Source: Sandaracinaceae bacterium (GTDB lineage Bacteria; Myxococcota_A; Polyangia; Polyangiales; Sandaracinaceae). Taken from it: DNA of 64,000 nt. The stretch's first letter is position 1. Each line of letters opens with the position of its first letter. The translations under genes were made by a program, and so were the position numbers. The stretch spans positions 248,001 to 312,000 of the forward strand of contig JAVJQK010000076.1 in assembly GCA_040218145.1 (NCBI GenBank), read 5' to 3'. Below the pieces are notes generated by a model. It was not told the DNA's origin. It did no database searches and saw only the letters and a list, made by a program, of their open reading frames with translations. Positions 57,104 to 60,119 of this stretch are shown in pieces.

Positions 57104-58237
57104 TCAGAAGGGCGCGCGCAGGCCGGCCTGGGCCAGGATCGCGTCGCCGAACGTGCTGGTCTGGTGCCAGTAGTTGAACGAGAGATCGACCCACGCGCGC
57201 TCGAGGAACGACAGCGGGGTGCGGGACAGGAAGTCGAGCCCGACCCGGAGCTGGACCCCGAAGAGGTGGGAGAAGAAGTTGCTCATCTTCGGGTCCGCGG
57301 TGACGAAGTCCTCGGTGCCCGAGTACTCGGTGCGGAAGAAGAACGAGTCCACCTGATCGTGGTAGCGGTAGCGCAGGCGCACCACGACGGAGTCGCCGAT
57401 GAGCTGGTAGACGCGGACCTCGGGGTTGAGGGCGGAGACGTCCCAGTCGTCGAGGTAGGCGCGGTACATCAGGTGGACCGCGGTGCGCGTCTCCGGGAAG
57501 AAGTGCGCGAGGCGGCCCCAGAGCGTGTGGCGGGTGCGCTGGTCGGGGTGATCCTCGGCCACGAGCCCGCCGCCGACGCGCGCGCGCCGATACGGGTTCT
57601 GCAGGTAGCCCCAGTTGTGCACGAGCTGGTAGCCCGTCACGAAGGTGGTCACCGGTGAGAGCGTCTGGTTGAGGGAGACCGACGCGGTCACGCCCTCGAG
57701 CTGGCCCTGCCGCCCCCGGTCGCTCAGGTCGCGCCCGGTGTCGTCGGTGCGGGGCATGCCGCCGCGCAGCACGGAGCCGACGTTGTCGTGGATGTAGGTG
57801 AAGGCGCCGCTGATCACCGTCGAGCGCTGGTTGAGCGACAGGGTCGAGAAGGTGGTGATACGCGAGGCGAAGTAGTCGGGCTCGTGGCTGAGCCCGCCGA
57901 GCACCCCGAGGCGGAGCTGCATCTCGCCGAGGTCGAACTCGCGGCTCGCGCCCAGCGATCCCTGGTTGCGCACCTCGGTGAAGCGGATGTCCTCCTGCAC
58001 GCCGGCCGCGATGCTCGCGCTGGTGATGGCGTCGATGAGGTAGCCGCCGTCGATCTGCACGCCCTCGGGCGTGACGAGGCGAGCGCGCACCTCGGGGGCC
58101 ACCACGCGGGTGGAGGTCTCCCAGTAGTAGTTCGCGCGGAGCTCCACCGAGCCGGTCCAGGTGCCCGACGCTTCATCCGCGGCCGCGGGCGCGGCGAGCG
58201 CGAGCGCCGCGACGAAGGCTGTCAGCGCGCGCTTCAT
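57104..58237 (-). CDS. DUF3570-type outer-membrane beta-barrel protein
   Basis: A 377-residue exported protein. The signal peptide MKRALTAFVAALALAAPAAA is followed by repeated amphipathic strands with aromatic girdle residues (VELRANYYWETSTRVVAPEV, then YRYHDQVDSFFFRTEYSG) and an aromatic C-terminus (AGLRAPF). Such proteins (DUF3570) form barrels and normally accompany a DUF4266 small lipoprotein, as here. The ATG overlaps the stop of that gene. The function of the pair is not known. Confidence 0.82.
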   Translation of the reverse strand: MKRALTAFVAALALAAPAAADEASGTWTGSVELRANYYWETSTRVVAPEVRARLVTPEGVQIDGGYLIDAITSASIAAGVQEDIRFTEVRNQGSLGASREFDLGEMQLRLGVLGGLSHEPDYFASRITTFSTLSLNQRSTVISGAFTYIHDNVGSVLRGGMPRTDDTGRDLSDRGRQGQLEGVTASVSLNQTLSPVTTFVTGYQLVHNWGYLQNPYRRARVGGGLVAEDHPDQRTRHTLWGRLAHFFPETRTAVHLMYRAYLDDWDVSALNPEVRVYQLIGDSVVVRLRYRYHDQVDSFFFRTEYSGTEDFVTADPKMSNFFSHLFGVQLRVGLDFLSRTPLSFLERAWVDLSFNYWHQTSTFGDAILAQAGLRAPF

Positions 58238-58446
58238 CAGTTGCAGCCGCAGCCGCCGCCGGTGGATCCGGTCCCGCCCGTCGCGCCCTCGCGGGAGTCG
58301 AAGACGTGGGCCTGGAACTCGCCTTCGCCCTCCTCGAGCTCCACGTTCATCGCCGGGTTGGCGAGGTACTCGCGCTCGTAGGGGGCGACGGAGACGCAGC
58401 CGCCGAGCGCGGCGCAACACAGACAGAGGAGCAAAGCCAGACGCAT
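58237..58446 (-). CDS. DUF4266-type small lipoprotein ending GGGCGCN
   Basis: A 69-residue lipoprotein. The lipobox LGGC puts the lipid cysteine at residue 17. A short conserved core (PYEREYLANPAMNVE, then HVFDSREGATGG) leads into a Gly-rich tail ending GGGCGCN. This matches DUF4266, which travels with DUF3570 barrels. The two C-terminal cysteines are a plausible metal- or cofactor-binding or maturation site. It is the upstream gene of the pair and shares one base with the barrel gene. Role unknown. Confidence 0.82.
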   Translation of the reverse strand: MRLALLLCLCCAALGGCVSVAPYEREYLANPAMNVELEEGEGEFQAHVFDSREGATGGTGSTGGGCGCN

Positions 58447-58486: not shown

Positions 58487-60070
58487 TCACGGGGTCGCGG
58501 TGACGAGCCCCACGCTCGCGAGGCCGGAGGCGAGGTCCGGCTGGAGCGCTCCGCCGATCGCGGCCGCGCCCACGGTGCGCGCGTTGAAGCGCAGGCGCCC
58601 GGCCCCGCCGCCGCCGCCGCCGCCGTTCTCCGCGGAGGTCCCGGGGCCGCCGTCGCTCCCCATCGCGTCGCTTCCGTCGCCGCCGCCGCCGCCCTGGTCG
58701 CGCCCCATCGGCCCGGGGGCGGGAACGGTCACGGTGTCGCCGTCCGGGCCGTCGTCGCCGCGGCCGCCGCAGCCGATGCCCAAGCCACAGCGGCTGCCCT
58801 GGGCGCCCGCGCCCCCGTTGGCGCCCACCGTGCCCGTGACGGTGAGGGAAGCTGCCTCGAGCAGGATCGCGCCGCCCGCGCCGCCGCCGCCGCCCGCGCC
58901 GGAGTCGAACAACGCGCCGCCGCCTCCCTGGCCTCCGCCCCCGCCCGCGTCGATCACGCCCCCGACCCGCAGCGCGCCGCCGGCGCTGATCTGGAAGGCG
59001 CCGCCGCCGCCGCCGCCCGAGCCGCCGTTGTTGTCGCCGCCGCCGCCGCCGCCGGAGCCGCCGCGGATCGGCACGAGCGAGGCGACGCCGTGCGTGCCCC
59101 CCGCCGCGCTGCCGCGCCCACCGGCGCCGCCCGACGAGCCGTGGCCGCCGCCGCCGCCGCCTTCGTCTCGGTTGCTCGACTCGTCCGCGCCGCCCGCGCC
59201 GCCGCCCGGGCCGCCGCCTCCGCTTCGCGCGCCGCCGCCGCCGTCCCCGCCCGGGCCCGCGCCGCGTCCGTCGGAGCTGACGTCGACGAGCCCGTCGAGG
59301 GTCGCGTCCTCGGTGACGAGCAGGATCAGCGCCCTGCTCCCCCGTCCGCGGATCGTGCTGCCAGCCGGGAGGCTGAGGGAGCGGAGGACGAAGACGCCGA
59401 GGGGCGCGCCGACGGGGGTGCTCGGATCGAGGCGCTGATAGAAGATCCCCGAGTCGGGGTCGCGCCCCTCGCCGTCGGAGGCTTCCCGGATCACGGTCGA
59501 GGACTGGACGATGGAGCCGTCGTCGGTGTCGAAGACGACCGCGTCCGGACCCGCGACGAGCAGGTCTCCGTCCCCGGCGTCCATGGCCACGCGGGCGCCC
59601 ACGTTGCTCGGGAGCAGGACCCTGCAGGCGCCGGTCGCGCAGCCGAGCGGGCAGGTCTCCCGCGTCAGCGCGCCCATCTCGCAGCGCACGACGTCGTCTC
59701 CGTCGCACACGGAGGGCGCGGTCGGATCGCAGCCGGCGTCGAAGCCCGAGTCCACGCCGCCGTCAACGCCTCCGTCGACGCCTCCGTCCATGCCCGCGTC
59801 CGTGCTGGCGTCGGTGCTGGCGTCGGTGCTGGCGTCCGGGCCGGCGTCCATGCTGGCGTCGGGGCCGGCGTCCGCGCTCGCGTCCGGGGTCTCGCCCGCG
59901 TCCGGATCACGCCCGCCGTCGAGGGCCGCGTCCCCTTCGCTCGAGCCGTCGAGGCGGCTCGCGTCCAGCCCGCTCGCGTCGGGGCCGTCGGCGGGCTCGC
60001 GGAGCCCGCTCCGATCGAGCGTGCATCCGAAGAGCGCCACGGTGAGGAGAAGAAAGAAGCAAGAGCGCAT
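58487..60070 (-). CDS. Gly-rich lipoprotein with Asp-Ala-Ser tether
   Basis: A 527-residue lipoprotein with the lipobox LFGC (cysteine 16). The tether (about residues 20-105) is made of D-A/G-S/G/T repeats such as DASTDASTDASTDAG. A short Cys module follows (CDPTAPSVCDGDDVVRCEMG). The body is beta-helix-like with long glycine runs (GGGGGGGHGSSGGAGG), as in proteins with glycine-rich parallel repeats. The DNA is strongly repetitive. The ATG at 60070 is chosen for the signal peptide. A structural or adhesive surface protein is possible; function unknown. Confidence 0.75.
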   Translation of the reverse strand: MRSCFFLLLTVALFGCTLDRSGLREPADGPDASGLDASRLDGSSEGDAALDGGRDPDAGETPDASADAGPDASMDAGPDASTDASTDASTDAGMDGGVDGGVDGGVDSGFDAGCDPTAPSVCDGDDVVRCEMGALTRETCPLGCATGACRVLLPSNVGARVAMDAGDGDLLVAGPDAVVFDTDDGSIVQSSTVIREASDGEGRDPDSGIFYQRLDPSTPVGAPLGVFVLRSLSLPAGSTIRGRGSRALILLVTEDATLDGLVDVSSDGRGAGPGGDGGGGARSGGGGPGGGAGGADESSNRDEGGGGGGHGSSGGAGGRGSAAGGTHGVASLVPIRGGSGGGGGGDNNGGSGGGGGGAFQISAGGALRVGGVIDAGGGGGQGGGGALFDSGAGGGGGAGGAILLEAASLTVTGTVGANGGAGAQGSRCGLGIGCGGRGDDGPDGDTVTVPAPGPMGRDQGGGGGDGSDAMGSDGGPGTSAENGGGGGGGAGRLRFNARTVGAAAIGGALQPDLASGLASVGLVTATP

Positions 60071-60119
60071 GGGGCGGACTCTTCCCCGAGATCCGGCCTC
60101 GATCAACGCAGCGTCGCCG

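Follow-up and report, generated by a model that had tools for sequence, protein, structure and literature searches.

What does a lipoprotein of 69 residues with two cysteines at its extreme C-terminus do for the outer-membrane barrel encoded directly behind it? This question is raised by a gene pair on the reverse strand of the window, a 64,000-nucleotide stretch of DNA whose host is a marine myxobacterium of the Sandaracinaceae. The smaller gene (58237..58446, minus strand, with its ATG at position 58446) encodes a DUF4266 lipoprotein (PF14086, E 9.2e-21; 75 bits against a curated cut-off of 27), and the larger (57104..58237, minus strand) encodes a 377-residue DUF3570 protein (PF12094, E 3.8e-26; 92 bits against a curated cut-off of 25). 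The TGATG at which the genes meet (58235..58239, minus strand) contains both the stop of the lipoprotein (TGA, 58239-58237) and the start of the barrel (ATG, 58237-58235), with one base in common, just as an earlier note on this DNA had read it. Because both proteins exceed their Pfam cut-offs, the genome contains four such pairs, and DUF3570 comes next in 38 of the 43 HMM-found myxobacterial DUF4266 genes that have more than 1.5 kb downstream, the pair is confirmed as real and not a product of chance. When 29 genomes of the order were searched for both families, 18 had both, 11 had neither and none was discordant (p 3e-8). The recurrent pairing of a lipoprotein with an outer-membrane barrel claimed in the earlier note is upheld by the Pfam matches, the four pairs, this co-occurrence and the barrel model described below.

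The same note held that no function is established for the pair, a statement that is now outdated. In Chlorobium luteolum, DUF3570 is flavinylated by its cognate ApbE at two [ST]GA[ST] sites, and the modification is lost only when both serines are mutated; clusters with ApbE, a thioredoxin-like protein, DUF4266 and often DsbD were described in the same work, where redox cycling was proposed for the DUF4266 CXC (PMC8238504, Meheust et al. 2021). Neither the barrel fold nor the membrane location of DUF3570 is given there, and a 2024 follow-up, in its excerpted text, models other ApbE targets and not DUF3570 (PMC11334425). In the literature searched, we found DUF3570 and DUF4266 by name only in PMC8238504, and no report of an outer-membrane barrel with a flavin site at its outer mouth for DUF3570. 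Half of the reading proposed here was suggested already in 2021; the barrel architecture and the stand-alone variant seem to be new.

In the window, the pair occurs as a stand-alone variant: neither ApbE, thioredoxin nor DsbD is linked to it, there is one putative flavinylation site and not two, and serine takes the place of the motif glycine. No ApbE or thioredoxin-family gene lies near the pair and no DsbD-like ORF was recognised among the listed neighbours; no ApbE gene lies near the three paralogous pairs of the genome either. The pair is flanked by a gene for a Gly-rich lipoprotein and by pcm, and uvrB is nearby; relatives partly share this placement near uvrB. The Gly-rich lipoprotein (58487..60106, minus strand) is also Asp-rich and has no Pfam match. 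Its gene shares the strand of DUF4266, lies 40 bp upstream of it and is probably outside the DUF4266-DUF3570 system; according to the neighbour map, related genomes have a DUF2271-like gene at this spot. No sigma-70-like promoter was found at the pair, a result that is uninformative for a GC-rich host.

The DUF3570 protein has a signal peptide, amphipathic strands that close a barrel and a C-terminal aromatic residue (Phe). Its AlphaFold2 model, built from a 74-sequence alignment (A3), contains 16 strands with a mean pLDDT of 90.7 and a pTM of 0.84; it was matched by Foldseek to OmpG and CymA, and by structural alignment to the barrels of BamA, PelB, BcsC and FhaC with Z of 17-22. The protein is thus confidently modelled as a 16-strand outer-membrane barrel, the assignment that the earlier note had made from the letters. 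Lumen and lipid faces were assigned from hydrophobicity parity, and the alternation is clear in most strands and weak in strands 8 and 12, as is the assignment there. Lumen-facing residues are far more conserved in the outer third of the barrel (2.65 bits) than in the periplasmic third (1.56 bits; p 2e-5), and those of the outer third form a lumenal crown (Y38, D69, R90, S117, E119, D151, R234, R259, D263, R291, Y/H293 and Q295). Neither translation of the pair contains a CxxCH haem motif.

Alignment of 74 DUF3570s locates a putative flavinylation site, D69-A-I-T-S-A-S75 (58013..58033, minus strand), which in the model runs from the end of strand 3 into the 16-residue loop before strand 4 (loop 2). 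Since both ends of an outer-membrane barrel are usually periplasmic and its long loops lie outside, loop 2 is extracellular in the model, and the site sits at the outer mouth under the Arg/Asp/Glu/Tyr/Gln crown. The barrel probably carries a covalent vitamin-B2 cofactor (FMN) at its outer mouth. Within the pattern D-x-x-[ST]-x-A-[ST], the first [ST] and the acceptor [ST] are present in all 74 sequences, the Asp in 72 and the Ala in 73, and this near-invariance extends to copies without a linked apbE. At position five, 32 sequences have Gly, 32 have Ser and 10 have Ala, and Gly is more frequent at apbE-linked loci than at unlinked ones (Fisher p 0.003). The window heptapeptide agrees with this relaxed pattern and departs from the canonical ApbE-substrate motif D-x-x-[ST]-G-A-[ST]. 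It also lacks the two [ST]GA[ST] motifs that have been reported for ApbE-associated DUF3570s, which are no condition for membership of the Pfam family: the second site is absent, and the first alone is kept in the window protein and in its close relatives L063, L074 and L103.

A Gly-less first site (TSAS, TAAS or SSAS) is found in 15 apbE-linked loci, and in several loci of this kind (L068, L072, L075, L084 and L089) the second site is missing. Because apbE-linked loci have this motif, several of them without a second site, TSAS and SSAS look, by their sequence context, like natural ApbE targets. In another substrate, exchange of the Gly for Ala cuts flavinylation to about half (PMC12052999).

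The genome encodes a single ApbE (C77:9520-10359, E 1.4e-75), a lipoprotein by its signal sequence, which is unlinked to the pairs. With phylogeny ignored throughout, ApbE is found in 88 of the 89 genomes of the phylum that have DUF4266 and in 143 of the 193 that do not (p 2e-8), in 39 of 39 against 9 of 19 in the order and class, and in 23 of 23 against 4 of 14 among genomes of the window's class that have no FMN_bind (p 3e-6). In G204, a DUF4266-positive genome that is 86% complete, no ApbE was detected. Neither an FMN_bind protein nor a DUF2271 above cut-off was found in the window's genome. A secreted DUF2271-like family (c23; for example L145:5971-7986, plus strand; PF10029 at E 0.0037, below cut-off) has a site of the form D-A-[VI]-T-x-A-T, its C-terminus carries the tail 'CFIATAAYGS...', and in several relatives its gene stands directly upstream of DUF4266. 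By its sequence, this family is a possible unrecognised ApbE substrate. The window's genome has three copies (G000:C131:12744-14120, C50:142263-143399 and C44:4129-5100), which could explain the presence of its ApbE and which confound the co-occurrence; the idea that the DUF3570s are the only ApbE targets of the genome is weakened by them. That the DUF2271-like site also lacks the Gly fits a relaxed local preference of ApbE.

In the small lipoprotein, the lipobox (..LGG before Cys17) leaves a mature chain of 53 residues that begins at Cys17 and ends T-G-G-G-C-G-C-N, the last seven residues (Cys66 and Cys68; 58240..58260, minus strand) forming the CxC tail. All four DUF4266 lipoproteins of the genome end in GGGCGCN, and a Sandaracinaceae MAG contig (L045) encodes a DUF4266 identical to that of the window. 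Our scan of named genomes was drawn with the pattern GGGCGCN and is circular with regard to CxC conservation, so we turned to a tail-less profile (A7) that covers only the N-terminal part of DUF4266 and searched 56 genomes of the order with it. Of its 70 matches, 66 have Cys-x-Cys no more than four residues from the C-terminus, in agreement with the conserved terminal cysteines of the earlier note. Three of the four exceptions are weak matches that are probably unrelated to DUF4266. The fourth, L206 (G295:C159:5506-6210), is a clear homologue whose CxC tail is gone, apparently through frameshift or decay. We also considered DUF4266 itself as an ApbE substrate, given that its window tail D-S-R-E-G-A-T resembles the motif; the paralogues read REGTAG, REGSYG and REASAG at this place, and the likeness was set aside as chance.

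Of 126 homologues, 73 have a mature chain of 53 residues, and the full range is 50-64; since this range is narrow for a mostly flexible chain, it suggests a spatial constraint on the lipoprotein. Docking of the tail was modelled with a read-through fusion of the homologous pair L116 (its TAG read as Gln), folded with 30 alignment rows. The barrel and the small helical core were folded in this model; the tail (62-77) had a pLDDT below 50 and gave no sign of docking, which is consistent with its being flexible. Around the pair, our survey bore out the hint that ApbE and thioredoxin-like genes might be neighbours: apbE is linked in 31 of 74 named loci, the rest being unlinked, and in 53 of the 74 a thioredoxin-family gene (CGPC in most cases) is found no more than 1.5 kb away on the strand of DUF4266, vs 5 of 43 myxobacterial loci. 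Because the tail is predicted to be disordered and such neighbours are frequent in the named loci, a redox-active arm fits better than a fixed plug.

The pair is most likely a device that moves electrons to the cell surface. The barrel would be exported, and an ApbE encoded elsewhere would act in trans to transfer FMN from FAD to Ser75; the barrel would then insert with the flavin at its outer mouth under the conserved crown. The small lipoprotein would be anchored to the outer membrane, its chain of about 53 residues consisting of a short helical core followed by a flexible tail, rich in Gly, that presents Cys-Gly-Cys. In contact with the barrel, this motif would cycle between dithiol and disulfide and shuttle electrons between thiol donors of the periplasm (TlpA/thioredoxin, DsbD) and the FMN, and electrons would probably flow outward to a final acceptor. 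To such a stand-alone outer-membrane redox module, with FMN placed on Ser75 in trans and the CGC tail as thiol-flavin shuttle, we give an even chance. Counting against it, a flavin at the outer mouth would be far from periplasmic thiols, the window motif lacks the canonical Gly, and no ApbE, thioredoxin or DsbD gene is near the pair. A bolder form, in which the porin-like barrel with its extracellular-mouth flavin becomes a trans-outer-membrane conduit, the dithiol tail threading the lumen and the unlinked ApbE accepting the Gly-less motif, we hold to be possible and rather unlikely.

The departures of the window copy can also be read as a loss: the change of Gly to Ser, the missing second site and the missing apbE and thioredoxin neighbours would all be expected if the protein had given up flavinylation and become an ordinary channel or binding barrel, of a fold indistinguishable from porins, with TSAS as a structural remnant and the lipoprotein as an assembly or stabilising partner with a structural disulfide. 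We consider this unlikely, since the Asp, [ST], Ala and [ST] of the site are nearly invariant even in unlinked copies, ApbE co-occurs with unlinked pairs, and a conserved crown surrounds the TSAS site. A CxC at the C-terminus, together with Gly and Asn, is also able to bind soft metals. The tail could accordingly hold copper, iron or zinc, and the pair could be an outer-membrane device for metal uptake, efflux or sensing in which the flavin reduces the metal, a reading favoured by the 25 DUF3570 clusters that contain a VIT1 iron transporter (PMC8238504). Genes of the thioredoxin family are much commoner neighbours and suggest thiol exchange, the window pair has no metal gene beside it, and one core His is the only other conserved ligand, so that a metal device appears distinctly unlikely to us.

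CxxCH proteins (HZS-alpha-like proteins and small di-heme lipoproteins) are encoded close to DUF4266 in 31 of the 74 named loci and in 15 of the 43 myxobacterial ones, and in several Polyangia loci, including the C12 copy of this genome, small CxxCH lipoproteins follow the pair. The pair may then be one end of a longer electron wire with c-type cytochromes, the lipoprotein being a mere scaffold. This is improbable, as the window copy and two of the other three pairs of the genome have no CxxCH protein nearby, and a CxC that is near invariant would be needless in a scaffold. With regard to the composition of these loci, gammaproteobacterial loci without a linked apbE have a long cluster in common, which comprises an HZS-alpha-like CxxCH protein, an SH3 plus barrel protein, a small barrel, a TlpA-like protein, DUF4266 and DUF3570. 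The protein of about 900 residues that heads such clusters (L106:5282-7966, plus strand, and its like in 47 loci) contains two CxxCH motifs and, in its middle, a hydrazine-synthase-alpha domain. Behind the C12 pair (L012:7116-9277, minus strand) come a small lipoprotein with two CxxCH haem motifs and another with a Cys-Asp/His motif of the HZS-alpha-associated group.

Returning to the redox module, we predict that present counts of flavinylation sites are too low, because the Gly-less motif of unlinked pairs would escape searches with [ST]GA[ST]. Among the closest known systems are the DsbD-type flavinylation clusters (ApbE, DUF3570, thioredoxin-like PF13899, DUF4266 and DsbD; PMC8238504), which have the same pair, the same kind of site and the same C-terminal CXC. 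The window pair differs from them in its lack of linked ApbE, thioredoxin and DsbD, so that ApbE would act in trans, and in having one site, with Ser replacing the motif Gly, whereas two are reported there. In the Erv2/ALR sulfhydryl oxidases, a mobile terminal CXC disulfide feeds the flavin (PMC4019985), much as in the model proposed here. There is no homology between the two: Erv2 is a helical bundle with non-covalent FAD and a proximal CXXC, whereas in the window pair the FMN would be covalent and would sit on a barrel in another polypeptide. The OmpG, CymA and BamA-type barrels share the fold of the DUF3570 model, at a sequence identity of about 6-14%, and no flavinylation site is known in them. 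In porin-cytochrome conduits of the MtrAB type, an outer-membrane barrel brings electrons across the outer membrane, and by analogy a barrel is proposed here for their passage; the window proteins have no haem motif, and the redox groups would be a flavin and a dithiol. If the flavin does sit at the outer mouth of the 16-strand barrel, a testable question arises, namely whether these bacteria bring electrons to their surface by flavin and thiols and not by haems. Such a conduit would be the flavin and thiol counterpart of the haem-based porin-cytochrome complexes.
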